64,000 nt of DNA, taken from NCBI RefSeq assembly GCF_005116455.1, contig NZ_SWBP01000005.1, positions 248,001 through 312,000 of the forward strand, in the 5' to 3' direction. Positions 31,749 to 56,107 of the stretch are shown in pieces. The translations under genes and the position numbers were made by a program. Source of the stretch: Pedobacter cryophilus. GTDB lineage: Bacteria > Bacteroidota > Bacteroidia > Sphingobacteriales > Sphingobacteriaceae. The notes beneath the pieces are model-generated. The model ran no database searches. It was given only the letters and a program-made list of their open reading frames with translations, and was not told the DNA's origin. Position 1 is the first letter of the stretch. Every line of letters begins with the position of its first letter.

Positions 31749-31771
31749 TGCGGAGAAAGAGGGATTCGAAC
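31749..31771 (-). other. tRNA-Ser 3'-end fragment: putative attachment site (distal att)
   Basis: 23 bases are identical to 56019-56041, the 3' end of tRNA-Ser(GGA) (acceptor strand, discriminator and the T-loop side of the T-arm). Identity stops abruptly at 31772. The rest of the tRNA is absent here. The fragment has the same orientation as the complete gene, as expected for the direct repeats produced by tyrosine-recombinase insertion into a tRNA 3' end. Confidence 0.8.
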
Positions 31772-32019: not shown

Positions 32020-32059
32020 AAAAATACTTAAACTTGTGTATACAAGTTTAAGTATTTTT
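32020..32059. promoter_or_regulatory. GntR operator upstream of the permease (40-bp palindrome)
   Basis: Two perfect 18-base arms (32020-32037 and 32042-32059) around GTAT. The centre ACTTGTGTATACAAGT matches the operators at 34379 and 48805. It ends 2 bases before the -7 box, so it covers the -33 position and a bound protein would block transcription. Confidence 0.85.
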
Positions 32060-34288: not shown

Positions 34289-34315
34289 TTCATTTAAAAA
34301 AATAGGTTTCTTTTG

Positions 34316-34323
34316 CAAATGTA
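34316..34323 (-). promoter_or_regulatory. -7 box of the gntR promoter
   Basis: TACATTTG on the minus strand fits TAnnTTTG, 27 bases before the ATG at 34288. Confidence 0.6.
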
Positions 34324-34378: not shown

Positions 34379-34392
34379 CTTGTATATACAAG
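34379..34392. promoter_or_regulatory. GntR operator of the SUS operon
   Basis: Perfect 14-bp palindrome CTTGTATATACAAG, ending 10 bases before the -7 box at 34403, so it covers the -33 region. Confidence 0.8.
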
Positions 34393-40276: not shown

Positions 40277-41713
40277 ATGAAAAATATTAAAACTATATAT
40301 TTTGCTGTTTTTACGGGAATATTCCTTTTTGTAGTTACTGGTTGTAGCAAGGTAGAAAATGAACTTACTCAGGGTACAGATTATACTTTAAACACTCAGC
40401 AAGATGTTGCCCAATTTAAAACTACTGAAGGAATCAGAACACTGACAATAAGCGGCAATAATATCACCGATGTTTCTATGCTTAGTTTTAAAACTGTTAA
40501 AACCTTGATAATTGAAAACACTTCTATTAAAAATCTTTCATTGCCTCAGTTAACATCAGTAACATCATCATTAATTATACAGAATAATGATGTTCTGGAG
40601 TCTGTTAATATGCTTACCAATTTTAAATTCTTAAATGGCAATTTAAATATTGTTAATAATAAGTTACTTACAGATATTTCGGGCTTTTTGCAATTAAAAG
40701 TATTTAAGGGAAATCTCTTAATAACGGATAATGTTTTATTGGGAGAAAATCTAACCTGTACATCAACAAGTATCGGGTTTTGTGTAATTAAATATTTGCT
40801 GGAGAATTCAATAATTAGTGGCACCATAACTTTATCCAACAATCATCCAAAAGCAGTTACCGATGCCTCATTGATAGGTGTTATAACAGGGGGTAATATT
40901 ATCAGCTACACACTTGGTTCAAAAGCTGATATCGAAAATTTTGCACCACAATCTGATACCGTTCAAAATTTAACCATCTCTGGTATTGATATTACCGATA
41001 ATGTATTATCCCTGATTAAAGATCGTATTAAAGGAGTGAAAGGAACGGTAAGTATTACGAATACTTCTATTAAAACTACCGAGAATTTCTTCGAGGCTAT
41101 AAAATGTAATGGAAGCATTATACTGCGTAATAATCTGGAGTTGACAAATCCACAGGGTTTTAAAGGTTATATTCTTATTAACGGAGACTTAATTATAGAA
41201 AATTGTCCAAAACTAAATTATTGGGGTACACCAAGAGGAGGTGCTGGTTTTTCTGGAGTTGTAAGAATTGAGGGTAGCCTCAAACTAAACCCAGTACCTG
41301 AAATGGCAGAAGGTGGTGCTGGACTTATCTCTTTGATTTACGTGGGTGGAGATTTTGAAATTGTTGGAGACCGTACAAAAGGAGGAATATACAATTTAGA
41401 TACGTGGTATCAGTTAGGCGGAGGTATTAAGCATATTGGAGGTAGCCTTATTTACAACAACCATTACATGGTAAATGGACTTGGAGGTTTTGAAAATCTC
41501 GAATACTTAGGCGGTGATGTGACAATTCTAGACAATGGTGTTACAGCCGGTACCATTCCCTTGCAAAGTTTAACGAATCAGGTAGGTTTCTGTCTCATTA
41601 AGAAATTTTTAGATAGTGGGATTATTAAAAAAAGTAATCCTACAATACAGCTTCGTGTTAAACCTGGCGATCCGTTTATTGAAGTAAATACTTTGATACC
41701 ATGCAACAAATAA
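40277..41713 (+). CDS. repeat-rich surface lipoprotein (SusE/F position)
   Basis: A 478-residue lipoprotein (lipobox VVTGC, Cys about 23) in the place where PULs encode surface glycan-binding proteins. The chain is built of short beta strands spaced about 20-25 residues apart (for example RTLTISGNNITDVSM, KTLIIENTSIKNLSL, SLIIQNNDVLESV), resembling receptor L-domain or beta-helical solenoids. There seem to be two homologous halves: FCVIKYLLENSIISGTITL near 170-190 and FCLIKKFLDSGIIKK near the C-terminus, each closing a run of repeats. Glycan binding is inferred from position; the family is not one I can name. Confidence 0.6.
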   Translation: MKNIKTIYFAVFTGIFLFVVTGCSKVENELTQGTDYTLNTQQDVAQFKTTEGIRTLTISGNNITDVSMLSFKTVKTLIIENTSIKNLSLPQLTSVTSSLIIQNNDVLESVNMLTNFKFLNGNLNIVNNKLLTDISGFLQLKVFKGNLLITDNVLLGENLTCTSTSIGFCVIKYLLENSIISGTITLSNNHPKAVTDASLIGVITGGNIISYTLGSKADIENFAPQSDTVQNLTISGIDITDNVLSLIKDRIKGVKGTVSITNTSIKTTENFFEAIKCNGSIILRNNLELTNPQGFKGYILINGDLIIENCPKLNYWGTPRGGAGFSGVVRIEGSLKLNPVPEMAEGGAGLISLIYVGGDFEIVGDRTKGGIYNLDTWYQLGGGIKHIGGSLIYNNHYMVNGLGGFENLEYLGGDVTILDNGVTAGTIPLQSLTNQVGFCLIKKFLDSGIIKKSNPTIQLRVKPGDPFIEVNTLIPCNK

Positions 41714-41736
41714 GGGATATTTTTAAAATAAAAGTT

Positions 41737-43005
41737 ATGAAAAGAATAGTGTATGCATTTATGCTTTTTGCAGCCATATTGGCATGTAAGAAAGACAAAA
41801 ATCAAGTAATTGAATCTAAACGAGATATACAACGGAGTTACACTTTTTCTAATGGTATAATGCCTGAAAATGTATTGAGAAGTTATTTGTCACGCAGTAT
41901 AACACAAGCTGAATTTTTAACCACAGATGGTTTTTATAATGATGGAGCTTACCCAGATAAGGCCGATGATACCCGTATGTTGAAGAATATGGGAGCTAAA
42001 TTTATTGGCCGTTCTATTTATACATGGGGGCTCGAAGGTCGTATTAACAACCCCCTTTTCATGAGTAATGCTAAAGTTAAAATTAGTGAAATGCATCTTA
42101 CAGATTCAGATATGCTATTTCAAGCCGCTATTTTTGAAATTATTACACCAGATGTAAATACTGTACCAGTACCAGCATGGGTATTTCAAGAATTTGGTTT
42201 AGCTGTTAGTGCAAGAAATTTTGTTTATACCGATATGATAAACTTAGATGGTGTTGGCGTAGGACAATGGGGATATGGCAGTGTTCCAGATATATCTCGC
42301 TTAGAAACTCGTATGTATTTCTTTTTTCTAGCCACAAAATATATAGGAACTGGCATAGAAGCCATTCATTTTGGTCAGGTAGAGTTAATGTCAATGGTTG
42401 ATAAGAATAATAACTATGCCGGCTGGTCTGATCTTTTAACCCGCATAAGAGCCATGGCTAAAACAAAAGCAATTAGAGGTACTGTGATATGTGACGCCCA
42501 TTTAGGTAGTGGCGGAATTGTAATTGATGGAAAATTATTGTTTGATTTTGTGTCGTTTCCTATGCGGATAAAAGAGATTTCTGGAGAGCCACAAAAAGGT
42601 GAATTAAAGAAATTTTATCTTGATGCTATATACGGAAGAACAAAAGGAGGCATTACCCCATCTGGTTGGAGTTGTGATAAAGCACTATACCAAGTTGAGT
42701 TTGACAATTTTGGAATAAGCGATCATCCTGGCGTTTCAAGCATATCAGATGAATGGACTTGGGGTTATGATGAAATTAGCTGGTATTATAATCAATCAGA
42801 AGATTACCGAAACGAATTTTTAAAATATGCCAGTAAATGGATAGTGAAAACAGATCTTAACGGTTATGTACAAATGCCAGGCAGCCGTGTGGTTATTACT
42901 TCTAACGGTGCAACACGTTACCGGGCAAATAAAAAAAGTGATGCTTGCGTAAATGGTAGGAATCAAGAAGAAACAATAAAATTGTTATGGTTAGAAGAGG
43001 AATAA
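41737..43005 (+). CDS. lipoprotein of unrecognised family, tandem paralogue 1 (possible TIM-barrel glycosidase)
   Basis: A 422-residue lipoprotein; I use the ATG at 41737 (lipobox AAILAC), not the one at 41701 that would precede the signal peptide. It is clearly homologous to the next gene product over its full length. Shared blocks include AKFIGR-IY-WG, FQAAIFE, P-WVF, SVPDI-R-ET, EA-H-GQ, DAH and VE-DNFG. Regular strand-end acidic and His residues suggest a TIM-barrel hydrolase, with the Glu of QAAIFE and the Asp/Glu of VEFDNFG as candidates for catalysis. I do not recognise the family; an enzyme acting on the locus glycan is inferred from position only. Confidence 0.55.
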   Translation: MKRIVYAFMLFAAILACKKDKNQVIESKRDIQRSYTFSNGIMPENVLRSYLSRSITQAEFLTTDGFYNDGAYPDKADDTRMLKNMGAKFIGRSIYTWGLEGRINNPLFMSNAKVKISEMHLTDSDMLFQAAIFEIITPDVNTVPVPAWVFQEFGLAVSARNFVYTDMINLDGVGVGQWGYGSVPDISRLETRMYFFFLATKYIGTGIEAIHFGQVELMSMVDKNNNYAGWSDLLTRIRAMAKTKAIRGTVICDAHLGSGGIVIDGKLLFDFVSFPMRIKEISGEPQKGELKKFYLDAIYGRTKGGITPSGWSCDKALYQVEFDNFGISDHPGVSSISDEWTWGYDEISWYYNQSEDYRNEFLKYASKWIVKTDLNGYVQMPGSRVVITSNGATRYRANKKSDACVNGRNQEETIKLLWLEEE

Positions 43006-44240
43006 AGTTGCTGCTTGTAACTATTTTATTTTTAATGAGTTGTACTGTCAAAGCTGAAACTGAAAATCTCGCCTATCATTTTGATAAGGCGGGCATCTCA
43101 GAGCAAGTTTTAACTAATTACTTAAAACGGGCGGTAACCATGTCCGAGTTTCTTACTGTTAATCCATTTTGTAATGATGGGCTACAGTCTGATAAAAGCG
43201 ATGATATCCGATTGATTAAGAATATTGATGCTAAATTTATTGGTAGGGCAATTTACCGTTGGGGAGATGAACATGCATTTAATAGTCCTGAATTTCTTGG
43301 ACAAGCAGCTCGATTAATTAAAGACGTTCATCGCAATGATTCTGAAGTAATTTTTCAGGCAGCAATTTTTGAAAATGTCACCCATGAAGTTGATCAGATC
43401 AATATTCCTAATTGGGTTTTTATAGCATTAAATATGCCCGTTGAAAAGAGAAATTTCAGTTATGCCTCTATGCTTAATCTTAAAGGCAAGTATGTTGATC
43501 ATTGGGAAAAAGGACATAGTGTACCTGATATTACCCGATATGAAACACAACTTTGGTTTACATTTTTAGCAGGCTCTTACATTAATATCGGTTGCGAAGC
43601 TCTTCATCTAGGGCAAATAAACCTGATAGGCATGGAAGATGCCGGACTGAAATTTTGGGTAGCATGGTGTGGGAGTATTCGTAAGTATGCAAAGAAACAC
43701 GCTCGCCGCAACTGGGTTTTGCTAGATGCTCATTCTACAGAAGGGGGAACTCTCATTGATGATAAAAGCCTTCTCGACTTTAATTCCTATCCATTACGTA
43801 TTAAAGAGGATATTAATTCTCCAATGCAAGGAGTTTTAGAAAAGGGTTATTTAGATTCATTTTATGGTAGAAGTAAAGCTTGTGAAACTCCAACTGGTTG
43901 GAAATGCAAAGCATTACCATATTTGGTAGAGCTTGACAATTTTGGAGTGAGTGCAAAACCCGGCATTGCAAATCTTAGCTCACATTATATATGGGGATAT
44001 GACGAAATTACTTGGTTTTATATTCAGAAGGAGGATTATCGTAAAGCTTGGTTGAAATATGCTAATAATTGGATTCAGGAAAATGATATTGCAGGTCATC
44101 TTCAAATGCCAGTTACAAGAATCATTACATTAGATAATCATATTCCTGTATTTAAAAATTTCGGAAACAATAAGTCTTCCAAATGTCCTGATGGGATGAA
44201 TTTGGAAGAAACGATTAAAAGTATTTGGTATAAACAATAA
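42987..44240 (+). CDS. lipoprotein of unrecognised family, tandem paralogue 2
   Basis: A 417-residue protein with an N-terminal membrane segment and lipobox-like FLMSC. It overlaps the preceding gene by 19 bases, which implies translational coupling. Homology to paralogue 1 runs from residue about 35 (VLTNYLKRAVTMSEFLTVNPF) to the end (LQMPVTRIITL, EETIKSIW). Conserved motifs: DAKFIGRAIYRWGDE, IFQAAIFENVTHEV, SVPDITRYETQLWFTFLA, EALHLGQINLIGMED, LLDAHSTEGG and VELDNFG. Tandem duplication with divergence suggests two specificities for one substrate. Function unknown. Confidence 0.55.
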   Translation: MVRRGIKLLLVTILFLMSCTVKAETENLAYHFDKAGISEQVLTNYLKRAVTMSEFLTVNPFCNDGLQSDKSDDIRLIKNIDAKFIGRAIYRWGDEHAFNSPEFLGQAARLIKDVHRNDSEVIFQAAIFENVTHEVDQINIPNWVFIALNMPVEKRNFSYASMLNLKGKYVDHWEKGHSVPDITRYETQLWFTFLAGSYINIGCEALHLGQINLIGMEDAGLKFWVAWCGSIRKYAKKHARRNWVLLDAHSTEGGTLIDDKSLLDFNSYPLRIKEDINSPMQGVLEKGYLDSFYGRSKACETPTGWKCKALPYLVELDNFGVSAKPGIANLSSHYIWGYDEITWFYIQKEDYRKAWLKYANNWIQENDIAGHLQMPVTRIITLDNHIPVFKNFGNNKSSKCPDGMNLEETIKSIWYKQ

Positions 44241-44250
44241 GTTATTAATA

Positions 44251-46581
44251 ATGAGTCGATTGAAATTATTACCCTTGAATTTAGTTTTATTTTTTGCTGT
44301 ATTATCTATTTCTGAAACTGTAGCACAGGAAATAAATTCTCAACTTAAATGGAAAATAGCTTACCATAAAACTGAAAGTGAGATTCCTGAAAAATGGTTA
44401 CCAGCAACAGTGCCAGGTGCTGTACAGCTAGATGTGATGAAAGCAGAAAACTATAAACAACCCTATTGGTATGCAGATAATTTTAAACAGTTTGACTGGA
44501 TGGAGGATTACTTTTTTAGCTACAAAACTGTTTTTAAGCGACCTTCCTTACCAAAAGGAAATCGAGTATTCTTTCATTCAAAAGGAATAGATTATCAATT
44601 TAAACTTATTCTTAACGGCATAAATATTTTTGAACAAGAAGGGATGTTTACTTATGTAGATATAGACCTGACTGATAAATTAAAAGACGAGAACGAGTTG
44701 AAAATTATTCTAATGCCTATTCCAAAAATCAAAGAAGCGGCTACTTATATTCCAGGTTCTGAAACTTATAGGCAAAATGCTAGAGAAAGTGTAAAACCTG
44801 CCGTTAGTTACGGATGGGACTGGCACCCAAGATTAGTTACCCGCGGGATTTGGGATGAAACTTATCTTTCAGTGAGAAAGAGTATCCATTTAACTGACTT
44901 TGACATTTCTTATACTTTAAATGATGAATTTAAAAATGCTAATCTGAGTTTAAGTTTAAAAGGAGAAAATCTTAAAGGAAAACGGTATAAGTGGGCGTTA
45001 ATAGATAATAAAGGTAGTGTGGTTTTTACAAAAACAGGTTCATTCAACTCAAATAATGAAGAGGTTTTTGCCAATATTAATAATCCAGCATTATGGTGGC
45101 CTAATGGTTATGGCGCTCCAACACTTTATCAAAGCGAGATTTTATTACTTGATAAGCGTGGTAAGCTATTAGATAAAAAACAGTCTAAAGTTGGCTTTCG
45201 TAAAATAAGCATGATTATGAATGATGGGGAGTGGGATAAGTCGGCGGGGTTTCCTATAACTAGAAACAGGGCGCCAGCAAGTTTAGAGGTAAATGGCAAA
45301 AGAATTTTTGCCAAGGGCTCTAATTGGGTTCATCCCGAAATTTTTGTTGGTCTTATCAATAAAGATACTTATCAAAAGCAATTACAATTAGTAAAAGACG
45401 CGAATTTTAATCTAATAAGGGTATGGGGAGGAGGAATAACTAATAAAGAATCATTTTTTGATATATGTGACGAAAAAGGGATTCTAGTATGGCAAGAATT
45501 CCCTCTGGCATGTAATAATTATACAAATGATGCCAAATACTTATCTGTTTTACAACAAGAAGCCACTTCTATTATAAACCGGTTGAAAAAGCATGCTAGT
45601 TTAGCAATCTGGTCTGGAGGGAATGAGTTGTTTAATAGCTGGAGCCGTATGACTGATCAATCCTTAGCCTTACGCTTATTAAACAGTTTATGCTACCAGC
45701 TTAACCCTCAAACTCCATTTATTTATACCTCACCTTTATACGGGATGGGGCATGGAAGTTATGTTTTTTTTGATAAAGATAATAGTAAAGGGAATGAAGT
45801 TTTTCAATGGTTGGCTAAGTCTGATAATACAGCCTACACAGAATTTGGAATACCTAGTGTAGCTAATTTAGATGTACTGAAACAGTTTATACCAAGCAAT
45901 GAACTTTTTCCGCCAAAGAAAGGCACCTCTTGGGAAACCCATCATGCATTTGGAGCCTGGGGCGAGAACAGATGGTTAGAGCTGCCTTTTCTGGAAGATT
46001 ATTTCGGTAAAATCTCGTCTTTAGAAAACCTGGTAATTTACAGTCAGTTGACTCAATCAGAAGGGCTAAAATTTATTTATGAGGAAGCCCGCAGGCAAAA
46101 ACCTTATTGTAGCATGGCTTTAAGTTGGTGTTTTCAAGAGCCATGGCCTACGGCAGCTAATAATAGCTTGGTAAACTGGCCCAATGCTGTAAAACCAGCA
46201 TATTATCAGGTTGCAAATGCATGTCGGCCAGTTTTAGCAAGTATAAGTGCACCAAAATTTCTCTGGATAGAAGGAGAAGAATTTAGTTGCGAATTATATC
46301 TATTAAATGATACTTACGACACATTAAAGTCTGGAACTATTAAAGTTAGCTTACTTTATGATGATAAAAAAGTAGATTTTGCATCTTGGGATTTCAAAGA
46401 GCCTAAACAATTCGAAAACACAAAAGGACCAAAGGCAACCATAAAGTTACCCGTTATGAAAAATGGGCTTTTCATTATTAAAGCCGAAGTAGTAGGCATG
46501 CCTCAATATAATTCTACGTACACTTTTTTGTATAAAGGGACTAGTGTAACCTATCTAAAATCTTCTGTTTCCAATAATTAA
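44251..46581 (+). CDS. GH2-family beta-mannosidase-like glycoside hydrolase
   Basis: A 776-residue exported hydrolase (signal peptide to about residue 25). It has the GH2 layout: sugar-binding jelly-roll (about 30-205, ATVPGAVQLDVMKA, YGWDWHPRLVTRGIWDE), Ig-like domain (215-330) and the TIM barrel with FNLIRVWGGGI. The acid/base is Glu459 in WSGGNELFNSW, and the nucleophile is Glu531 in AYTEFGIPSV. The early WYADNF and WMEDYFFSYKT motifs and the GG before NE place it nearer to beta-mannosidases (and CsxA-like exo-enzymes) than to beta-galactosidases. Together with the next gene it points to a mannose-containing or manno-configured glycan; exact specificity is not proven. Confidence 0.82.
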   Translation: MSRLKLLPLNLVLFFAVLSISETVAQEINSQLKWKIAYHKTESEIPEKWLPATVPGAVQLDVMKAENYKQPYWYADNFKQFDWMEDYFFSYKTVFKRPSLPKGNRVFFHSKGIDYQFKLILNGINIFEQEGMFTYVDIDLTDKLKDENELKIILMPIPKIKEAATYIPGSETYRQNARESVKPAVSYGWDWHPRLVTRGIWDETYLSVRKSIHLTDFDISYTLNDEFKNANLSLSLKGENLKGKRYKWALIDNKGSVVFTKTGSFNSNNEEVFANINNPALWWPNGYGAPTLYQSEILLLDKRGKLLDKKQSKVGFRKISMIMNDGEWDKSAGFPITRNRAPASLEVNGKRIFAKGSNWVHPEIFVGLINKDTYQKQLQLVKDANFNLIRVWGGGITNKESFFDICDEKGILVWQEFPLACNNYTNDAKYLSVLQQEATSIINRLKKHASLAIWSGGNELFNSWSRMTDQSLALRLLNSLCYQLNPQTPFIYTSPLYGMGHGSYVFFDKDNSKGNEVFQWLAKSDNTAYTEFGIPSVANLDVLKQFIPSNELFPPKKGTSWETHHAFGAWGENRWLELPFLEDYFGKISSLENLVIYSQLTQSEGLKFIYEEARRQKPYCSMALSWCFQEPWPTAANNSLVNWPNAVKPAYYQVANACRPVLASISAPKFLWIEGEEFSCELYLLNDTYDTLKSGTIKVSLLYDDKKVDFASWDFKEPKQFENTKGPKATIKLPVMKNGLFIIKAEVVGMPQYNSTYTFLYKGTSVTYLKSSVSNN

Positions 46582-46591
46582 TAACCATACA

Positions 46592-48796
46592 ATGATGTTG
46601 AATTATAAATTTATTGCTGCCATTTTGTTTTTAGGTTCTAGTGTATTCGCACAGAATAAAACATCTAATCTTTCTTATGTAGATCCTACAATTGGTGGTG
46701 TAGGAGTCATTTTAGAACCAACCCGTCCTGTTGTTCATTTACCTAATAGCATGTTAAGGGTTTATCCAATGAAAAAAGATCAGCTTGATGATCAGATAAG
46801 TCAATTCCCTTTAAATGTTGCATCTCATCGTATTGCCTGGGTGTTTTCATTTTTGCCAGTATGTGATAGTAATGTAGATAAATTATGGACAGCCCGGTTT
46901 TCAATTGAAAAAGAACAAACAACGCCTTATTACTATCAAGCCGAAGAGGAAATTTCACAAAACACTGTTGAATTTACACCCACCGCAAAATGTGGCTTTT
47001 TTCAAACTAAATTTAATAATAAGGCAGATAAATACCTGCGCTTAGGTATTTGGGGTTCAGAAGGGCAGCTTAATGTTTCAGACAAACGTGTAATTACAGG
47101 AACCGAGAGTTTTTCCGGGATGAAAGCATATTTCTATGGGGAAACAGATACGGATATTGAGCAGGTTAAATTTCAAGATAAAAATCAGCATAAACTACTA
47201 GCCAGAGTAAGTGATAATACTGCCTCTGTAGGTTTCAAATACGGAATATCTTATATCAGTATCGAACAGGCAAAGCAAAATCTTTATAAAGAAATCCCAG
47301 GTTGGGATTTTAATGCCATTAAAAATAACGCCTATATAACTTGGGATAAGCTGCTGGATCAAGTACAAATAAAGGGTGGATCTTTAGCTCAAAAACGTGT
47401 TTTCTATACTTCTTTATATCGCTCCTATGAACGTGTGGTTGATATTAATGAATATGGTCAATACTACAGTGCTTATGATCATAAAATTCATCAATCAAAA
47501 GAACCTTTTTTTGTAGATAACTGGTTGTGGGATACATATATTGCTTTAGAACCATTGCACATGATTCTTAACCCAAAACAAGAAGCAGAAAAAATCAGGT
47601 CGTATATTGATATGTATAAGCAGGGTGGCTGGATGCCTTCGTTTGCAGTAACTTTTGGAGATTGGCCGGCAATGACGGGTAATAATGCTGCGATATGGAT
47701 GTCGGATGCATGGTTTAAAGGGATCAAAGATTTTGATCTTAAAACAGCTTACGAAGGCATGAAGAAGAATTCTTTACAAGGAACTATACTGCCATGGCGC
47801 AATGGTGCGGCAACTTCTTTAGATTCTTTTTATAATAAAAACGGGTATATGCCTGGTTTGAAAATTGGCGAAACTGAACCAGTGAAGGAAGTTGATGCTG
47901 GCTGGGAGAAAAGACAATCAGTATCCGTAACGCTAGATAATAGTTATAGCGATTGGTGTATAGCAAATTTAGCATCTTACAACAAGAACAAAGCTGATCA
48001 AAGTTTATTTCTTAAGCGATCAGAAAACTATAAAAATGTATTTCGAGTAGAAAAAGGTTTTATGTGGCCAAAAGATAAAGATGGTAATTGGATTGAGCCT
48101 TTTGAACCAAAGCTTGCTGGTCGAGAGTATTTTACAGAGAATAATGCCTACAATTTTAATTGGGATGTGAAGCATGATTTTAAAGGCCTTTTTGCCCTCA
48201 TGGGAGGAAGGAAAAATGCAGAAGAAAAACTAGATCAGCTTTTCAGAGAAGAATTAGGCTTACCTAAATATAAGTACTGGTATACACAGCCGGATGCTTC
48301 TGGCTTGGTAGGGCAGTATGTAATGGGGAATGAGCCCGGATTGCATATTCCATATTTATATAATTATACAGGATCGCCTTGGAAAACCCAAAAACGTATC
48401 AGAATGCTATTAGATACTTGGTTTACAGATAATCTTTTTGGTATGCCTGGTGATGAAGATGGAGGAGGAATGTCTGCTTTTGTAGTATTTTCAATGATGG
48501 GTTTTTTCCCGGTAACACCGGGTGTGCCCGTGTATAATATAGGCAGTCCAATATTTGACCGCGTATCAATTCGCTTAACAGATGGAAGTGTTTTTGAAAT
48601 TACTGCTGTAAATAACTCTGCTGAGAATAAATACATACAAAAAGCATCTTTAAATGGTAAAGATTTGAACAAACCTTGGTTTACTCACGAAGATCTGATT
48701 AAGGGAGGAAAACTAGTATTTGTTATGGGTAATAAACCTAATACCGAATGGGGGAATTCTGAAGATGCAGCTCCCCTTTCAATCATAAATAAATAA
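46592..48796 (+). CDS. GH92-family alpha-mannosidase-like hydrolase
   Basis: A 734-residue exported enzyme (signal peptide ending near VFAQ) of the calcium-dependent GH92 exo-alpha-mannosidase family. Family signatures: YVDPTIGGVG at the start, VDNWLWDTYIALEPLHMIL, GGWMPSFAVTFGDWPAMTGNNA, GNEPGLHIPYLYNYTG (with the acid Glu) and the base motif region GDEDGGGMSAFVVFSMMGFFPVTPG. The N-terminal domain is shorter than in some members and carries PTRPVVHLPNSMLR. It is the last gene of the SUS operon. Known members release mannose from N-glycans and mannans; some are specific for other linkages, so this substrate is open. Confidence 0.9.
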   Translation: MMLNYKFIAAILFLGSSVFAQNKTSNLSYVDPTIGGVGVILEPTRPVVHLPNSMLRVYPMKKDQLDDQISQFPLNVASHRIAWVFSFLPVCDSNVDKLWTARFSIEKEQTTPYYYQAEEEISQNTVEFTPTAKCGFFQTKFNNKADKYLRLGIWGSEGQLNVSDKRVITGTESFSGMKAYFYGETDTDIEQVKFQDKNQHKLLARVSDNTASVGFKYGISYISIEQAKQNLYKEIPGWDFNAIKNNAYITWDKLLDQVQIKGGSLAQKRVFYTSLYRSYERVVDINEYGQYYSAYDHKIHQSKEPFFVDNWLWDTYIALEPLHMILNPKQEAEKIRSYIDMYKQGGWMPSFAVTFGDWPAMTGNNAAIWMSDAWFKGIKDFDLKTAYEGMKKNSLQGTILPWRNGAATSLDSFYNKNGYMPGLKIGETEPVKEVDAGWEKRQSVSVTLDNSYSDWCIANLASYNKNKADQSLFLKRSENYKNVFRVEKGFMWPKDKDGNWIEPFEPKLAGREYFTENNAYNFNWDVKHDFKGLFALMGGRKNAEEKLDQLFREELGLPKYKYWYTQPDASGLVGQYVMGNEPGLHIPYLYNYTGSPWKTQKRIRMLLDTWFTDNLFGMPGDEDGGGMSAFVVFSMMGFFPVTPGVPVYNIGSPIFDRVSIRLTDGSVFEITAVNNSAENKYIQKASLNGKDLNKPWFTHEDLIKGGKLVFVMGNKPNTEWGNSEDAAPLSIINK

Positions 48797-48804
48797 ATAA
48801 TTTT

Positions 48805-48834
48805 TTTCTCTACTTGTATATACAAGTAGAGAAA
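48805..48834. promoter_or_regulatory. GntR operator of the catabolic operon (30-bp perfect palindrome)
   Basis: The 30 bases read identically on both strands, centred on CTTGTATATACAAG. The end lies 6 bases upstream of the -7 box at 48841. Confidence 0.88.
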
Positions 48835-48852: not shown

Positions 48853-49698
48853 ATGAAGACATATAAATTAAACAGATTATTTAATAGCAAATCAGGTAAT
48901 TGTTTTGATGTTGCTATAGACCATGGTTTTTTTAATGAGTACGCATTTTTAAGCGGGATAGAAAACATACAAAGAGCAGTAGAAGTTTTGGTAGCAGCAT
49001 CTCCAGATGCCATACAGCTTACTATCGGACAAGCACAATATTTGCAATCTATTCCGGGCAGAGAAAAACCATCTTTAGTTTTAAGAACAGATGTAGCCAA
49101 TGTTTACGGAAAAGAACTTCCACGTACTTTGTTCAGCAGAATTATCGAAAATCCGGTAGAACAAGCCATTCGTTTAGATGCCGCTTGCATAGTAGTAAAC
49201 CTGTTCAGTATTTCTGGTCAGCCAGAAGTTACCGATCAGTGTATCCAAAACATTCTGAAAATTAAACCCATTTGCGAGCAGTATGCTATGCCTTTAATGA
49301 TAGAACCATTGGTATTTCGTCCAAACAGCGAAGCTGGCGGTTATATGGTAAACGGCGATCCTGAAAAAATTGTACCATTGGTAAGACAAGGTGTTGAGCT
49401 TGGTGCAGATATTATCAAAGCAGATCCAACAGATGATGTAAACCTTTACCATAGAGTAATAGAAATTGCTGGAAATATCCCGGTTTTAGTACGTGGTGGT
49501 GGTAAAGCAACAGATCAAGAAATATTAGAAAGAACTTACGGTTTAATGCAGCAAGGAGCTAGAGGAATTGTTTACGGACGTAATGTAATTCAGCATGCAA
49601 ACCCAGCCGGTATGACCAAAGCTTTAATGGCTATCGTACATGAAGGCGCTCGTCCGCAAGATGTAATAGGCTTAATCCAACAATTGGAAAATGTATAA
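48853..49698 (+). CDS. class I aldolase of the DhnA/FbaB/LacD type
   Basis: A 281-residue Schiff-base aldolase that should split a ketose phosphate into two three-carbon units. The N-terminus FDVAIDHGFFNEYAFLSGIEN is the DhnA/LacD signature, with AIDHG at the phosphate site end of strand 1. Schiff-base Lys189 lies in ADIIKADPTDD, and the phosphate-binding VLVRGGGKATDQE and GARGIVYGRNVIQ follow. It is the first gene of the operon behind the 30-bp operator. In this context the likely substrate is the phosphorylated ketose made by the isomerase and PfkB kinase downstream. Confidence 0.85.
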   Translation: MKTYKLNRLFNSKSGNCFDVAIDHGFFNEYAFLSGIENIQRAVEVLVAASPDAIQLTIGQAQYLQSIPGREKPSLVLRTDVANVYGKELPRTLFSRIIENPVEQAIRLDAACIVVNLFSISGQPEVTDQCIQNILKIKPICEQYAMPLMIEPLVFRPNSEAGGYMVNGDPEKIVPLVRQGVELGADIIKADPTDDVNLYHRVIEIAGNIPVLVRGGGKATDQEILERTYGLMQQGARGIVYGRNVIQHANPAGMTKALMAIVHEGARPQDVIGLIQQLENV

Positions 49699-49705
49699 AA
49701 TTTAA

Positions 49706-49749
49706 AGGAAAAATTTGGTTGATGTATTCTCATCTTCCAAATTTTTCCT
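49706..49749 (+). terminator. hairpin after the aldolase gene (attenuator or processing site)
   Basis: Perfect 13-base arms AGGAAAAATTTGG and CCAAATTTTTCCT with an 18-base loop. No T-run follows, so it is a weak terminator or an mRNA-stability element within the operon. The 170-bp gap here is the largest in the cluster. Confidence 0.5.
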
Positions 49750-49868
49750 GATGGTATTTATCCAAATATCACACAATAACAACCAATGCGGTTATCTTAA
49801 ATACCGTAAAATAAACCAATAAGCAAGAATAGATAATTAGCTATTACTGTTTTATTTAAATAATTATT

Positions 49869-51023
49869 TTGATGAAAAAAGTAAATATTGGCATCATAGG
49901 CGGAGGGCTTATGGGTAAAGAATCTGCAAGTGCTTTCGGAAGATGGTTTGCTCTTAATGATTTCCCTGTTTCTGTAGAATTAATTGCTGTTTGCGATCTT
50001 AATGAAAAAGTTTTAGAATGGTACAAAGCCATACCAACTGTGAGTTTACTCACTACTAATTATAAAGAATTATTAGCTCGCCCAGATATAGATATAGTTT
50101 ATGTTGCTTTGCCCCACAACCTTCATCAGCAGTTTTACTTAGAAGTATTAGAATCTGGAAAAGACCTTTTGGCCGAAAAGCCATTCGGAATAGACTTAGA
50201 AGCCGCTTTAGCTATACAAGAAGCAGCAGAAAGATTAGGTCGTTTTGTAAGATGCAGCTCAGAAATGCCATTTTTACCAGGTCCGCAAAGAGTAATGAAA
50301 GAAGTGCTTTCTGGTAATTTGGGAGAAATTATTGAGATTAAAGCTGGCTTTTTACATTCAAGCGATTTAGATACCTCAAAACCTATCAACTGGAAAAGAC
50401 AAGTGAAATTTTGCGGTGAAATAGGGGTAATGGGTGATTTAGGAATGCATGTATTGCATGTTCCTTTAAGGTTAGGTTGGAAACCCGAATTGGTTCATGC
50501 TAATCTTCAAAAAATAATAACCGAACGTCCAGATGGTAAAGGAGGAATGGCAAAATGCGATACATGGAATAATGCAACATTACACAGCACTGTAGCTATC
50601 GAAAATAATGCTGTCCCTATGACATTGGAGATGAAGCGTATTGCTCCAGGTGAAACCAATACTTGGTACATAGAAGTATTGGGAACAAAAGGTGGTGTAA
50701 AATATAGTACCAAAGATACCAAAGCATTGTGGATATTTAAAGTAGGAGATGAGCAATGGTGGCAACGTACAGATTTAGGCTTTAAAGGCGTACCTTTTCC
50801 AACCATTACAGGTGGCATTTTTGAACCTGGTTTTACCGATTGTTTTATGCAAATGCTAGCTGCTTACGTAGCAGAAAGAGCAGGAGCTTTAAATAATAGA
50901 TTTGGTTGTGTAACACCAGAAGAAGCAGTAGCAAGTCATTATGTTTTTGCGGCAGCACTTAAATCATTTGCCAACAATACGGTAGAAAAAGTAGAATATC
51001 AATTAGAAAAACTATCGATATGA
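49869..51023 (+). CDS. Gfo/Idh/MocA family NAD(P)-dependent oxidoreductase
   Basis: A 384-residue two-domain oxidoreductase. The Rossmann fold begins IGIIGGGLMGKESA (residues 8-16), contains VCDLNEK, and the catalytic EKP is at 103-105 (LAEKPFG). The C-terminal beta sheet holds GVMGDLGMHVLHVP with the family active-site His. Members oxidise sugars or inositols, some act as NAD-dependent glycosidases (GH109, GH177/179, GH188) through a transient 3-keto sugar. The stop overlaps the next start by ATGA, so translation is coupled. Its exact reaction here is not known. Confidence 0.85.
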   Translation: MMKKVNIGIIGGGLMGKESASAFGRWFALNDFPVSVELIAVCDLNEKVLEWYKAIPTVSLLTTNYKELLARPDIDIVYVALPHNLHQQFYLEVLESGKDLLAEKPFGIDLEAALAIQEAAERLGRFVRCSSEMPFLPGPQRVMKEVLSGNLGEIIEIKAGFLHSSDLDTSKPINWKRQVKFCGEIGVMGDLGMHVLHVPLRLGWKPELVHANLQKIITERPDGKGGMAKCDTWNNATLHSTVAIENNAVPMTLEMKRIAPGETNTWYIEVLGTKGGVKYSTKDTKALWIFKVGDEQWWQRTDLGFKGVPFPTITGGIFEPGFTDCFMQMLAAYVAERAGALNNRFGCVTPEEAVASHYVFAAALKSFANNTVEKVEYQLEKLSI

Positions 51024-51592
51024 AAAGATCTGCTATAAATAAAGTTATAGGTGCTGCTAAACTATTTTTTAACCAAAACGGTTGGACTTTACCACCATCA
51101 CCAAGGTGGGACGTTACAGATTTTGGCTTAGACTCATTTTTGGCTTCGGGTTTGGTATTGGTAAATTTAGCAGAAGAAGTAGAATATTGCGAGAAGTTGA
51201 TGTATGCAGTAAAAAATCAACTTACACCTGCACATACCCATAAAAAGAAGAAAGAAGACATCATTTGCAGAATAGGTAAACTAGTTATTCAATTATGGAG
51301 CAAAGATCCGAAAAAAGGAGAATCAGGAGATAGTTTTAATGTTAAAATTAATGGTGTTTTTTGTCTAGTAAAATCAGGAGATACTATTCATCTTTCGGCT
51401 GGCGAAAGGGTAACAATTGTGCCGGGTATTTGGCATGCATTTTATCCCTCGTCTGAAGAGTGTATTATTGGCGAAGTTTCTACAGCTAATGATGATTTAA
51501 ATGATAATTTCTTTTCTGATGCAGAAGTAGGACGTTTTTCTGAAATACTGGAAGATGAACCAGCTATTGTTAAATTAGTAAGCGACAAATAA
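51020..51592 (+). CDS. cupin sugar isomerase, D-lyxose/D-mannose ketol-isomerase type
   Basis: A 190-residue single-domain cupin matching the D-lyxose isomerase family (YdaE/EcSI). The metal ligands are evident: His72 and His74 in PAHTHKKKKED, Glu79, and His139 in VPGIWHAFYP. GEVST (Glu152) and DVTDFGLDSF complete the family pattern. Characterised members interconvert D-lyxose and D-xylulose or D-mannose and D-fructose. It overlaps the oxidoreductase by 4 bases, and pfkB begins 5 bases later. It would turn a manno-configured aldose into the ketose for the kinase. Confidence 0.85.
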   Translation: MKRSAINKVIGAAKLFFNQNGWTLPPSPRWDVTDFGLDSFLASGLVLVNLAEEVEYCEKLMYAVKNQLTPAHTHKKKKEDIICRIGKLVIQLWSKDPKKGESGDSFNVKINGVFCLVKSGDTIHLSAGERVTIVPGIWHAFYPSSEECIIGEVSTANDDLNDNFFSDAEVGRFSEILEDEPAIVKLVSDK

Positions 51593-51597
51593 TTTTT

Positions 51598-52623
51598 ATG
51601 AGGAAAGGAATATTAGTTGCAGGCAACTGGATCATCGATCAGGTAAAGATAATCGATGTTTATCCTGAAGAAGAAAAACTGGTAAATATTTTTACCGAGT
51701 ACAATAGCAATGGCGGCTCGGCATATAATGTTTTAAAGGGATTAACAAAGCTAAAGGCTAATTTTCCTTTAAGCGGATTGGGTTTGGTTGGCGATGATGA
51801 AAGAGGAAGACAGATTATTGAAGAGTGTGAAGCTTTAAAAATTGACACGCATCAAATCAAGAAAACAACAGCTGCTTATACTTCCTATACTGATGTGATG
51901 ACGGTGAAATCCACAGGAAAAAGAACCTTTTTTCATCAGCGAGGAGCAAATGCCTTGTTGGATATTGATCATTTTGATTTTGATATTTCGCAAGCAAAAA
52001 TCTTTCATTTGGGTTATCTATTATTATTAGATAAACTGGATATTATAGAAGAAGATGGAAATACTAGAGCATCAAAAGTGTTGAAAAAAGCAAAAGAACA
52101 AGGCTTTATTACTTCTGTGGATATTGTGAGCGAACGTTCTGATCGTTTTAAAGAGATTATACCTTCATCTCTTCCTTACGTTGATTATCTTTTTGTAAAC
52201 GAATTTGAAGCCGGTATGATTACAGTGATAGAAACGGTTGCAACAAATGGAGAATTAATACTTGATAATTGCTACAAGGCAGCTCACAGAATTATTGAAA
52301 TGGGCGTTAAAAAATGGGTGATTCTTCATTTTCCTAATGGATGCATTGCAGTGAGTAAGGACGGAGAAGTATTATTTCAGTCTAGTATTCAATTGCCTTC
52401 AGATAAAATTGAAGGAGCAGTTGGAGCTGGAGATGCTTTTGCAGCAGGTGTATTAATGGGTATTCATGATGATTGGGAAATGGAACAAAGCCTAAAATTA
52501 GGTGTTTGTGTTGCCGCTGCCAGTTTATTTGCTGCAACATCTTCAGATGGCATTTTATCTTCAGAAAAATGCCTTTTATTAGCAGACCAATTCGGATTTA
52601 GAAATGAAACTGTAAAAGTTTAA
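51598..52623 (+). CDS. PfkB-family sugar kinase
   Basis: A 341-residue ribokinase-fold kinase. Early motifs are LVAGNWIIDQV and the glycine-rich NSNGGSAYNVLKGLTKL; the catalytic motif is EGAVGAGDAFAAGVLMG with base Asp279. Position after the isomerase and the presence of an aldolase suggest phosphorylation of a ketose at C1. Five bases after the isomerase gene; the FAD/Fe-S gene begins 20 bases after its stop. Substrate is inferred. Confidence 0.88.
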   Translation: MRKGILVAGNWIIDQVKIIDVYPEEEKLVNIFTEYNSNGGSAYNVLKGLTKLKANFPLSGLGLVGDDERGRQIIEECEALKIDTHQIKKTTAAYTSYTDVMTVKSTGKRTFFHQRGANALLDIDHFDFDISQAKIFHLGYLLLLDKLDIIEEDGNTRASKVLKKAKEQGFITSVDIVSERSDRFKEIIPSSLPYVDYLFVNEFEAGMITVIETVATNGELILDNCYKAAHRIIEMGVKKWVILHFPNGCIAVSKDGEVLFQSSIQLPSDKIEGAVGAGDAFAAGVLMGIHDDWEMEQSLKLGVCVAAASLFAATSSDGILSSEKCLLLADQFGFRNETVKV

Positions 52624-52643
52624 TGCTCAGATCTATATCGTAA

Positions 52644-55478
52644 ATGGACGGACAAAAAATTAGTGTAGCATTAAGGTCAATATTTCCAAAAGAAAGAATA
52701 AAATCCAGCTTAATAGATTTAGTAGCTTGTGCTTCGGATGCAGGATTTTATTATTTGCGTCCAAAAGCAGTGGTTTTGCCAGTTTCAGAACAAGAAATTA
52801 TCCAATTGTTTGCCTTTTCGCAACAAAATCACATTCCTCTGGTTTTTCGTACCGCTGGAACAAGTTTATCGGGGCAATCCATTACAGATGGTATTCTGGT
52901 AGATTTAAGTCAGCATTGGGATACCATTAAAGTGGAAGGAGAAGGTGCTACCGTGAGGGTAAAACCCGGTGCAATAGGTGCAATTGTGAATGCGCACCTA
53001 CAAAAGTACCACAAAAAAATAGGCCCCGATCCTGCCAGTATCAATTCGGCAATGATGGGCGGTATCATTTCCAATAATGCCAGCGGAATGTGTTGTGGGG
53101 TGTGTAAAAACTCTTACCATACTGTAAAATATATCCGTTTTATTTTACCTAATGGGAAAACTTATAGTACAGAAAAAATAGCTGATTATCAGCGTTTTAA
53201 ACAGGAATGTTCCGTTGTTTACCATCAATTGCAAAGCTTGCAATTGATGGTAATGGGGAATGTGTCAATCCATGATAAAATCAGGAAGAAATACCTCACT
53301 AAAAATACAGTAGGCTATTCTGTAAATGCTTTTATAGATTTTACAGAGCCATTAGATATTCTTGCACACTTGTTAATAGGAGCAGAAGGCACATTGGGTT
53401 TTATTGCCGAAGCAGTAATGGAGACCATTCCAGATTATTCAGAGAAATCAACAGCCTTATTGTATTTTACAGATATTTATTCGGCTTGTAAAGCAATTAT
53501 TCCTTTAAAATATTCGGGAGCAGCAGCTGTAGAATTAATGGATAGAGCTTCATTACATTCAATAGAAAACATGGTAGGCGTTCCGTCTATTATTAAAACC
53601 CTCCCAGAAACAGCAGCAGCATTATTAATAGAATATCAGGGAAATACACAAAATGAATTGCAGCTGCAAATAGATGGTTTTTTAACAATAGCGCCACAAC
53701 TCTCCTTAATTAACGCTGCCGAATTTACCACGGTAAGTTACGAACAGGCTTTATTATGGAAAGTACGCAAAGGGATGTTCCCTGCCGTAGGTGCTGTACG
53801 AGCAAGTGGTACAACTGTAATTTTAGAAGATGTGGCTTTCCCGGTAGAAAAACTAGGGGAGGCAATTATCGATTTACAGCAACTTTTCACTAAACATGGT
53901 TACCATAAAGCTATTATTTTCGGTCATGCTAAAGATGGGAATATCCATTTCGTAGTTACACAAGCATTTGACACTAAATTAGAAATAGAAAGGTACGCAT
54001 GTTTTTTAGATGAAGTGGTTGACCTAGTGATAAAAAAATACGATGGCGCTTTAAAAGCGGAACATGGTACCGGACGTAATATGGCGCCATTTGTAGAAAC
54101 TGAATGGGGCGGAGAAATTTACAAGATTATGAAGTCTGTTAAAGAACTCATAGATCCAGAAAATTTGCTCAATCCAGGTGTGATTATCAATGCAGATAAA
54201 GCAGCGCATATCACCAATCTTAAAGAACTTCCACAAGTTGAAGAAGAAGTAGATAGGTGTATGGAGTGTGGCTTTTGCGAACATAAATGCCCAAGTCGTA
54301 ACGTTACGCTCACTCCAAGAAAACGTATTGTAGTAAGGCGTGAGCTTTTAAACCTAAAGAATAAAGGAAATAAAAAGCAATATCAAACCCTACTCAAGCA
54401 ATATCAATATGAAGGTTTAGATACCTGTGCAGTAGATGGATTGTGTGCCACAGCCTGCCCAGTAGATATCAATACAGGCGATTTAGTAAAACGCTTGCGC
54501 AGAGAAAGTCATTCTGAAATGGCGAATAAAATAGCCCTGCTCACAGCTAAAAACTTTAAAACAGTATCTAAGACTGTGAAATTTGCACTTGCATCGGGTA
54601 TAATGATGAACAAAACATTCGGCAATAAAACGATGTATCGTGTTACTCACTCGCTCAGAAAAGTAATCTCTGCATTTCCATTATGGTCAAATCAGCTGGC
54701 ATTAGCAAAAGCTATTCCAAAGCAAAAAGAAGAGCAAGACCCAATTACAACTGTGGTTTATTTTCCCGCTTGTATATCGAGGATAATGGGCGATGTAGAA
54801 GAAAGCGAAAAAGGAGTGATGCAGACATTTTTAGATGTTTCTAGCAAAGCAGGCATTCAAGTTGTTATCCCTAGTAATATTGAAAAGCAATGTTGCGGTC
54901 AAATTTATTCTTCAAAAGGATTTAAAGGGGCATATAGCTATACGGTAAATGATACCATATCTAAGCTTTGGGAAATCACCAATAAAGGAGCATATTCTGT
55001 TGTAATAGATATTAGTTCTTGCACCCAAACATTAAACAACTGTCGACCTGCATTAACTGCAGGTAATAAAGAAAAATTTGATTTAATGCAGATCATCGAT
55101 AGTGTAGCTTACCTACATGATTATGTGATGCCTAAAGTAATCGTTTCAAAGAAAAAATCTAGGATTGTTTTACATCCCGTATGCTCCTTACAAAAAATGG
55201 ATGGTTTAGAAAGAAAATTCAATGCTTTGGCTACTCATTTTGCAGATGATGTTACCCAACCTTTATTTGCTGGTTGTTGTGGTATGGCTGGCGATCGTGG
55301 TTTCCTTTTTCCAGAATTGACTAAATCAGCAACCCTGTTGGAAAAGAAAGAAGTCTGGTCATCTGGAGAGTTTGATGGTTATTATTCTTCATCAAAAACC
55401 TGTGAAATTGCTTTATCAGAAGCATTAGGGAAGAATTACCATTCTATATTGAAATTGGTTGATGAGTGTAGTTTTTAA
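52644..55478 (+). CDS. D-lactate dehydrogenase-like FAD/Fe-S fusion protein
   Basis: A 944-residue quinone- or cytochrome-linked 2-hydroxyacid oxidase. The N-terminal half is a PCMH-type FAD domain (VVLPVSEQEIIQLF, FRTAGTSLSGQSITDGILVDLS, GGIISNNASGMCCG) with the FAD-oxidase C-terminal part (EHGTGRNMAPFVETEWG, DPENLLNPGVI). Two 4Fe-4S motifs follow: CMECGFCEHKCPSR (about 540) and CAVDGLCATACPVDINTG (about 595). The C-terminal CCG domains contain CCGQIYSSKG and CCGMAGDRG. Members oxidise D-lactate or similar acids. In this cluster it could burn the acid made from the aldehyde half of the aldol cleavage. Confidence 0.88.
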   Translation: MDGQKISVALRSIFPKERIKSSLIDLVACASDAGFYYLRPKAVVLPVSEQEIIQLFAFSQQNHIPLVFRTAGTSLSGQSITDGILVDLSQHWDTIKVEGEGATVRVKPGAIGAIVNAHLQKYHKKIGPDPASINSAMMGGIISNNASGMCCGVCKNSYHTVKYIRFILPNGKTYSTEKIADYQRFKQECSVVYHQLQSLQLMVMGNVSIHDKIRKKYLTKNTVGYSVNAFIDFTEPLDILAHLLIGAEGTLGFIAEAVMETIPDYSEKSTALLYFTDIYSACKAIIPLKYSGAAAVELMDRASLHSIENMVGVPSIIKTLPETAAALLIEYQGNTQNELQLQIDGFLTIAPQLSLINAAEFTTVSYEQALLWKVRKGMFPAVGAVRASGTTVILEDVAFPVEKLGEAIIDLQQLFTKHGYHKAIIFGHAKDGNIHFVVTQAFDTKLEIERYACFLDEVVDLVIKKYDGALKAEHGTGRNMAPFVETEWGGEIYKIMKSVKELIDPENLLNPGVIINADKAAHITNLKELPQVEEEVDRCMECGFCEHKCPSRNVTLTPRKRIVVRRELLNLKNKGNKKQYQTLLKQYQYEGLDTCAVDGLCATACPVDINTGDLVKRLRRESHSEMANKIALLTAKNFKTVSKTVKFALASGIMMNKTFGNKTMYRVTHSLRKVISAFPLWSNQLALAKAIPKQKEEQDPITTVVYFPACISRIMGDVEESEKGVMQTFLDVSSKAGIQVVIPSNIEKQCCGQIYSSKGFKGAYSYTVNDTISKLWEITNKGAYSVVIDISSCTQTLNNCRPALTAGNKEKFDLMQIIDSVAYLHDYVMPKVIVSKKKSRIVLHPVCSLQKMDGLERKFNALATHFADDVTQPLFAGCCGMAGDRGFLFPELTKSATLLEKKEVWSSGEFDGYYSSSKTCEIALSEALGKNYHSILKLVDECSF

Positions 55479-55497: not shown

Positions 55498-55614
55498 ATG
55501 AAATATAAACTTGGTGTCGACATTGGAGGTTGTCATATTGCAGCTACAGTTGTAGATATGGAGAACCGGTCTTTTGTGGAAAGCTCTTATTTTTATTATA
55601 AGTTTGAAACCTAA
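55498..55614 (+). pseudogene. ROK-family sugar kinase/repressor, 38-codon N-terminal stub
   Basis: Starts ATG 20 bases after the previous stop and reads MKYKLGVDIGGCHIAATVVD, the phosphate-1 ATP loop of ROK proteins (DIGGTHI-type), then runs into TAA after FYYKFET. ROK proteins are about 300 residues, so nearly all is missing. No downstream frame restores it. It probably belonged to this operon before a deletion at the tRNA-proximal island end. Confidence 0.75.
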
Positions 55615-55996: not shown

Positions 55997-56020
55997 AATA
56001 AAGTTTGATACGAGTATCTG

Positions 56021-56107
56021 CGGAGAAAGAGGGATTCGAACCCTCGGTACCGTTGCCAGTACACCAGCTTTCCAAGCTGGCTCATTCGACCACTCTGACA
56101 TCTCTCC
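56021..56107 (-). tRNA. tRNA-Ser(GGA)
   Basis: An 87-nt class II tRNA with a long variable arm. Acceptor GGAGAGA (56107-56101) pairs with TTTCTCC (56028-56022), discriminator G at 56021. The anticodon loop gives GGA (CTTGGAAAG), and the T-arm has GGTTCGAATCC. Its 3' 21 bases plus two flanking bases recur at 31749-31771. Confidence 0.96.

Follow-up and report, generated by a model that had tools for sequence, protein, structure and literature searches.

A GntR-linked gene cluster of Pedobacter cryophilus as a candidate regulon for a 6-deoxy-D-manno sugar

In the 64,000-nucleotide stretch of the Pedobacter cryophilus genome analysed here (contig NZ_SWBP01000005.1, positions 248,001 to 312,000; hereafter "the window"), three GntR-type operator sites tie together sugar release, import and catabolism. 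The catabolic part comprises five genes, encoding a class I aldolase, a Gfo/Idh/MocA oxidoreductase (Gfo), a cupin of the D-lyxose/D-mannose isomerase type, a PfkB kinase and an FAD/4Fe-4S 2-hydroxyacid dehydrogenase. As a first-pass annotation of the same DNA had stated, open reading frames and Pfam matches place all five intact on the forward strand, with glycoside hydrolase genes of families GH2 and GH92 directly upstream (Table 1). We read the cluster as a putative regulon, complete in itself, that would serve the use of a 6-deoxy-D-manno sugar, with D-rhamnose as the likeliest candidate; this is our leading hypothesis, with a chance that we put just short of even. The gene set, its motifs, the operator sites and a core that recurs elsewhere with swapped entry and exit genes are direct observations, and the recurrent core with its exchangeable neighbours is a more robust result than the D-rhamnose idea. 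For the route itself, we infer every substrate and every reaction from sequence.

Core genes and operator sites

The best NCBIfam match of each of the five core genes falls below its cut-off, so that their names are family-level only and their function must come from context. The motifs that activity would require are present throughout: HxHx4E (HTHKKKKE) and PGxxH (PGIWH) in the cupin, GAGDxF in the PfkB kinase, GADIIKAD with Lys189 in the aldolase, EKP and DxxxH in Gfo, and FGHxxDGNxH, EHGxG and two Cys motifs in the FAD/Fe-S protein. The cupin scores 126.5 against an equivalog cut-off of 350 (NF051472) and aligns with E. coli D-lyxose isomerase (3kmh, 3mpb) across the metal site and C-terminal motifs, although it is shorter (190 versus 246 amino acids in the chain). 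For the kinase, a proposed ketose 1-kinase, the nearest NCBIfam model is IolC and the nearest solved structure YdjH, and the match to sulfofructose kinase 7ag6 is weak (E 2.3e-4). The structure model of the aldolase (predicted local distance difference test score, pLDDT, 90) matches best the M. jannaschii ADH synthase (TM 0.81, 27% identity), whose matched structures carry dihydroxyacetone phosphate (DHAP) or fructose 1,6-bisphosphate, followed by LsrF and archaeal aldolases; the sulfohexulose-1-phosphate aldolase 8tnf stands at rank 36. The aldolase has the fold of ADH synthase, LsrF and archaeal class I fructose-bisphosphate aldolase, and its Lys189 aligns with the Schiff-base lysine of LsrF and ADH synthase, but identity is 24-28%, and the aldolase lacks the Tyr of the ADH-synthase segment MMYPRG, opposite which all 42 aligned relatives have EPLV. 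We propose that it is a 6-deoxyketohexose-1-phosphate aldolase. Gfo matches 8qc2, presumably the sulfoquinovosidase SqgA, only distantly (E 2e-5), and a role for it as an NAD-dependent glycosidase was rejected on that ground.

The operator is a palindrome, CTTGT(A/G)TATACAAG, whose exact pattern CTTGTNTATACAAG occurs at three places only in the 4.0-Mb genome, all at this locus. Allowing one mismatch adds two further places, the genome then giving 5 forward and 4 reverse matches versus 0 and 2 for a backwards-read control. With up to two mismatches the window holds 8 matches versus 2.95 expected, a number reached by 4 of 100 shuffles, so that only the exact form is informative. Across 15 genomes selected for carrying the aldolase, 42 forward sites were found with a looser pattern, CTTGTNTANACAAG, and 2 with the control. 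Where a site lies within 150 bp of an aldolase whose tblastn match begins at residue 1, it stands 21-27 bp 5' of the gene in 10 of 12 loci, two of the operator-bearing loci having a looser form.

Other members of the regulon recur as well. Orthologs of the window GH92 (54-68% identity) adjoin the operator in 6 of the 17 stretches around sites (L191, L194, L197, L203, L204, L205), in two cases distant from the aldolase (another contig in L203, about 275 kb in L204), and orthologs of the GntR protein (60-78%) and of the major facilitator superfamily (MFS) importer (63-79%) are also found at such sites in relatives. The GntR protein of the window probably binds the operator. The called frame overlaps the site at its 5' end in L204 and, for the MFS gene, in L194, so that the true start probably lies further downstream; in L203 the site coincides with the start of GH92, and the MFS gene is no more than a neighbour. 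Further sites precede other genes, several of them unannotated (L190, L192, L193, L195, L196, L198-L202, L206), which makes the regulon wider in relatives.

These results bear on several first-pass claims. The proposal of a manno-configured sugar is strengthened by the recurrence of GH92 in the regulon of this operator. The description of the hydrolases and core genes as one operon holds in so far as the five genes follow GH2 and GH92, but the operator 26 bp before the aldolase means that the catabolic genes are probably driven from a promoter of their own as well, and a 170-bp gap separates aldolase and Gfo. Neither an aldehyde dehydrogenase nor a sulfonate exporter, both suggested as candidates at other GntR-site genes, was seen under the operators, and the genome has no fourth exact site.

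A recurrent core with exchangeable entry and exit genes

By tblastn we mapped the window locus and 99 fetched ones, 100 in all and drawn from several phyla, and we built an aldolase tree (L053 was left out, being the same 15,342-base contig as L070 with identical coordinates); counts combine the tblastn map with cluster labels, and many contigs are short. Gfo accompanies the aldolase more often than any other gene does (57 loci), and the PfkB kinase is found in 53. The order aldolase-Gfo-isomerase-kinase recurs in other Sphingobacteriaceae and in Verrucomicrobiota, hence the gene order of the window is not a matter of chance. The entry genes change from locus to locus: lyxose-isomerase-type cupins (LYX) in 24, XylA-like isomerases in 14, both in 1, a PIG-L deacetylase with a NagB-like protein (c5) in 13, another such family (c36) in 4, SftI-like isomerases in 3 and none seen in 41, counting as in-locus a PIG-L/NagB-like pair far off on the other strand (L089) and a LYX-like gene 9.4 kb away (L085).

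The c5 family is a distant relative of NagB (profile against solved structures, E 3.8e-7) and of c36 (profile E 3.3e-17), and two c5 members searched had no Pfam match under E 0.1; examples of the two families lie at L045:5019-5951, L039:10169-11098 and L105:6906-7850. All 13 c5-bearing aldolase loci have the PIG-L deacetylase, and c36 lies near the aldolase in its 4. In L100, L118 and L127 the aldolase is accompanied by a weakly SftI-like isomerase (34.5 bits, cut-off 700), a PfkB kinase and a class III aminotransferase, and no Gfo was seen. Neutral-ceramidase-like genes, often several, occur near the aldolase in L039-L041, L044, L046, L073, L100, L118, L121, L127 and L128; of two scanned, one scored above and one below the Pfam cut-off.

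At the exit end, a same-strand 2-hydroxyacid oxidase stands beside the core in 18 of the 100 loci, and the four kinds found there lend weight to the earlier suggestion of a hydroxyacid product: Dld-like FAD/Fe-S proteins (the window, L034, L054, L055), LutABC (L045, L047, L048, L049, L073), GlcD(F) (L110, L115, L117, L119, L124, L125, L130) and YdiJ-like proteins (L035, L116). The oxidases of L071 (opposite strand, about 9-10 kb away) and L128 (9.7 kb) were not counted as adjacent. These modules sit in different parts of the aldolase tree. The window oxidase has the FAD, metal-site and Fe-S motifs of the FAD/Fe-S class of D-lactate dehydrogenases, and among solved structures LctD, from a lactate dehydrogenase, is its best relative. 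With PF01565 matched three times in the 4.0-Mb genome, this gene included, the oxidase is unlikely to stand here by chance. We propose it as a D-lactate dehydrogenase. Dld (SO_1521) and LldEFG of Shewanella probably resemble two of the exit modules. The D-lactate (dld) and L-lactate (lldEFG) dehydrogenases of Shewanella are neighbouring lactate enzymes (PMC5432575). LutABC, Dld-like and GlcDF-type enzymes have lactate in common (PMC3870299, PMC5432575, and established knowledge), which thus fits three of the four kinds of exit module.

The released sugar, the proposed route and its rivals

The GH92 protein is one of a subfamily of nine sequences (the window protein and eight at 54-68% identity), aligned without two fragments of 132-135 amino acids (L034, L054). 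Like the α-mannosidases BT3990, BT3130 and BT3965, it has the catalytic domain, the GDED motif and the Asp aligned with Asp353, the last two kept in 9/9 members; unlike them, it has lost an N-terminal loop and carries Phe for Trp in the -1 subsite. The WIGDYG-type loop is absent from 9/9 and present in 5/5 other aligned GH92s, and Phe occupies in 9/9 the position of Trp in 5/5 others. In the -1 subsite of BT3130, O6 is held by the backbone amide of Gly92 and O4 by Trp390 and Asp353, and such contacts are called fully conserved between two GH92s of different specificity (PMC5930347). Trp390 was assigned to the subfamily Phe by alignment, in a chain whose numbering runs 16 behind that of PMC5930347, and Gly92 would lie in the missing loop, which would then be the O6 contact. 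The characterised contacts of Gly to O6 and Trp to O4 thus seem to be lacking in the window protein, which remains a GH92 by sequence, with the label "D-mannosidase" to be held more loosely. The simplest reading is a manno-configured sugar whose C4/C6 end is changed, in line with the modified sugar end suggested by the first-pass annotation, and we propose an exo-α-manno-type glycosidase that releases 6-deoxy-mannose. A GH92 releasing mannose-6-sulfate is on record and gives a precedent for C6 changes being tolerated in the family (PMC13063451).

The SusC/SusD pair, recognised by translation, together with the glycosidases marks a Bacteroidota polysaccharide utilization locus. In the route that we propose, SusC/D and the secreted enzymes would bring in a glycan, the altered GH92 would free its terminal manno-configured sugar, and the MFS protein would import it. 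The cupin would then convert the sugar to 6-deoxy-D-fructose, the PfkB kinase would form the 1-phosphate, and the aldolase would split this into DHAP and D-lactaldehyde. Oxidation of D-lactaldehyde to D-lactate, possibly by Gfo, is the weakest step; the FAD/Fe-S protein would complete the route to pyruvate. Gfo is suggested as the oxidiser because aldehyde-dehydrogenase homologs occur in only 5 of the 100 loci (L050-L052, L060, L107; local blast with one methylmalonate-semialdehyde dehydrogenase, MMSDH, query) and a full-length RhaEW-like protein in L085 only. In that locus the RhaEW-like bifunctional aldolase/dehydrogenase (L085:5208-7193) lies behind the same operator and shares a single run of genes with the aldolase, Gfo and a GH92 ortholog. 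Elsewhere the P. cryophilus genome encodes ExaC-like, piperidine-6-carboxylate and succinate-semialdehyde-like dehydrogenases and two further family matches.

Among the closest parallels are the phosphorylated L-rhamnose and L-fucose pathways (RhaI-RhaB-RhaD/RhaEW, lldEFG), which likewise run through an isomerase, a 1-kinase, a DHAP-forming aldolase, lactaldehyde and lactate. In certain Actinomycetales and Rhodobacterales, lldD or lldEFG joins RhaR regulons (PMC3870299). The families of the window differ (cupin isomerase, PfkB kinase, ADH-synthase-type class I aldolase), no RhaI-, RhaB- or RhaD-type enzyme was found among the operon proteins searched, and the genome holds a separate pair of L-rhamnose-isomerase-like (495 bits, equivalog cut-off 647) and rhamnulokinase-like (60 bits, cut-off 528) genes.

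Other substrates would use much of the same gene set. The apparent change in the GH92 of both contacts, to O4 and to O6, would also suit another C4- or C6-modified manno-type sugar, such as 4-amino-4,6-dideoxy-mannose, 6-deoxy-talose or an O-methyl sugar; or Gfo, as the most frequent partner, might oxidise the sugar or ketose phosphate before cleavage, so that the LsrF-like aldolase, which true aldolases resemble less than ADH synthase and LsrF do, would give lactate or methylglyoxal directly. We consider this unlikely, as no aminotransferase or demethylase was seen among the operon genes and the oxidise-first chemistry lacks direct support. Ordinary mannose could pass through fructose and fructose-1-phosphate to DHAP and glyceraldehyde, with the oxidase acting on glycerate or on something unrelated, a course to which an isomerase family named for lyxose and mannose and the α-mannosidase activity of GH92s would be suited; we rate it as quite unlikely given a type I phosphomannose isomerase gene elsewhere in the genome (56.9 bits), the altered -1 subsite, and LutABC and Dld-like partners that presumably do not fit glycerate. 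The LYX and XylA-like isomerases and the GlcD/GlcF neighbours would also agree with a ketopentose-1-phosphate route, in which D-lyxose (D-xylose in XylA-like loci) yields xylulose-1-phosphate, then DHAP and glycolaldehyde, and finally glycolate and glyoxylate through GlcDF-type oxidases, but LutABC partners point to lactate, GH92 acts on hexopyranosides and D-lyxose is rare, which makes this route very improbable.

Catabolism of a sulfo-sugar, put forward as the alternative in the first-pass annotation, would follow the same order of reactions, and the sulfo-Embden-Meyerhof-Parnas pathway has the same logic of isomerase, PfkB kinase and class I aldolase, with an isomerase of another family. 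Structure 8tnf is among the aldolase matches, and mannose-6-sulfate has its own GH92 precedent (PMC13063451). Against this stand the exact operators, which are all at this locus with no sulfatase, sulfonate or exporter gene seen among the genes behind them, an importer of GluP/FucP type, a Gfo distant from 8qc2 and a hydroxyacid oxidase as part of the window set. The operator sites, the importer type and the weak kinase match to 7ag6 led us to reject it as the principal explanation, and sulfo-sugar or mannose-6-sulfate catabolism is in our estimate highly implausible. A uronate or IolC/IolJ-like route had been raised by the IolC-nearest kinase and by a paralog aldolase, about 50% identical, beside a CoA-acylating MMSDH; it was rejected, with no MMSDH seen in the window locus. 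That paralog, found in L050-L052 near MMSDH, GlpD-like and GH141-like genes, perhaps belongs to another aldolase-based pathway.

Several points weigh against the D-rhamnose route itself. The alignment that ties the missing loop to O6 runs through a variable region and was made without the BT3130 N-terminal sequence. The 18 oxidase-bearing loci are a raw count, and the members of each exit module are often near-identical, so that by the aldolase tree they may amount to about seven lineages. The best NCBIfam match of the window oxidase is the D-2-hydroxyglutarate dehydrogenase YdiJ (197.7 bits, cut-off 1350), followed by GlcD (187.7, cut-off 567.9). The LutB-like (435.6 versus 444.8) and GlcD-like (511.5 versus 567.9) proteins of other loci are below cut-off too, as are the GlcF-like protein (231.2 versus 333) and the YdiJ-like protein of L035 (611 versus 1350). 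The YdiJ-like exit does not point to lactate, the known YdiJ substrate being D-2-hydroxyglutarate, and LutABC suggests L-lactate in one clade. No aldehyde dehydrogenase lies in the operator regulon of the genome, to our knowledge neither a lactaldehyde dehydrogenase reaction nor the oxidation of free aldehydes is known for the Gfo/Idh/MocA family, and L085 has both the core aldolase and the RhaEW-like protein, whose roles may differ. Because lactate fits only three of the four kinds of exit module, and only 6 of the 25 LYX-type loci (some on short contigs) have an oxidase next to the core, we keep our confidence just below even. It is doubtful, to a similar degree as the modified-sugar alternative, that the core reflects a general modular 6-deoxyhexose route in Bacteroidota, Verrucomicrobiota and Chloroflexota, in which a fixed aldolase-Gfo-kinase core with Gfo as lactaldehyde dehydrogenase would receive manno (LYX), gluco (XylA-like) or N-acyl-amino (PIG-L and NagB-like) 6-deoxy sugars and end, in part of the lineages, in lactate oxidases.

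Genomic setting and significance

The cluster is likely a tRNA-integrated island. It is flanked by a 23-bp direct repeat formed by the 3' end of a tRNA-Ser gene and its copy (local alignment score 104; 200 base shuffles reached at most 51). The tRNA-Ser gene keeps its right-hand HAD neighbour in 5/5 congeners examined, and a search of 17 other genomes of the genus did not turn up the aldolase. The guanine-cytosine content is alike inside (0.342) and outside (0.338), so that it does not back a foreign origin. The paralogs X1 and X2 had no Pfam match, and the structure model of X2 with X1 reached a pLDDT of only 30.5. A short frame 3' of the operon (55498-55614), followed by a stop, is probably a gene remnant; by eye it resembles the start of a ROK-type sugar kinase.

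Table 1. Features of the cluster, by position in the window
Feature	Positions	Strand	Basis
23-bp copy of tRNA-Ser 3' end, left edge of likely island	31749-31771
GntR-type operator CTTGTGTATACAAG, before sugar importer	32033-32046		Exact-pattern search
MFS sugar importer, GluP/FucP type	32098-33510	+	TIGR01272 314.6 bits, cut-off 202.55
GntR-family regulator	33572-34318	-	Translation read; 60-78% orthologs beside operators in other genomes
GntR-type operator CTTGTATATACAAG, between GntR gene and SusC/D operon	34379-34392		Exact-pattern search
Probably secreted protein, first gene of polysaccharide operon	34465-35583	+	Relatives in L035-L037
SusC-like outer-membrane transporter	35617-38727	+	Translation read
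SusD-like glycan-binding lipoprotein	38738-40267	+	Translation read
Lipoprotein, leucine-rich-repeat-like by eye	40277-41713	+	Translation read
X1 (41701-43005) and X2 (42987-44240)	41701-44240	+	Probably secreted paralogs, 45% identical
GH2 hydrolase	44251-46581	+	Pfam
GH92, altered subfamily	46592-48796	+	Pfam 510.9 bits, cut-off 24.6
GntR-type operator CTTGTATATACAAG, 26 bp 5' of aldolase	48813-48826		Exact-pattern search
Class I (Schiff-base) aldolase, ADH-synthase/LsrF type	48853-49698	+	Pfam DeoC/LacD 125 bits
Gfo/Idh/MocA oxidoreductase, listed from TTG at 49869	49869-51023	+	Pfam GFO_IDH_MocA 63 bits
D-lyxose/D-mannose isomerase-type cupin	51020-51592	+	Pfam Lyx_isomer PF07385 170.5 bits
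PfkB kinase	51598-52623	+	Pfam PfkB 118 bits
FAD/4Fe-4S 2-hydroxyacid dehydrogenase	52644-55478	+	FAD-oxidase_C 179, FAD_binding_4 107 bits, 4Fe-4S
Matching 23 bp at 3' end of tRNA-Ser(GGA), right edge of likely island	56019-56041
tRNA-Ser(GGA)	56020-56107	-

D-rhamnose occurs in bacterial surface glycans, for instance in the common antigen of Pseudomonas aeruginosa. Among the matches listed in the open-licence literature we found no description of a D-rhamnose catabolic pathway, which an unlisted or subscription paper could hold, and nothing on this gene set. If the proposed route is true, the cluster would supply candidate genes for each step of D-rhamnose breakdown and a GH92 enzyme with a new specificity, and the core would allow the same metabolism to be recognised in several phyla.

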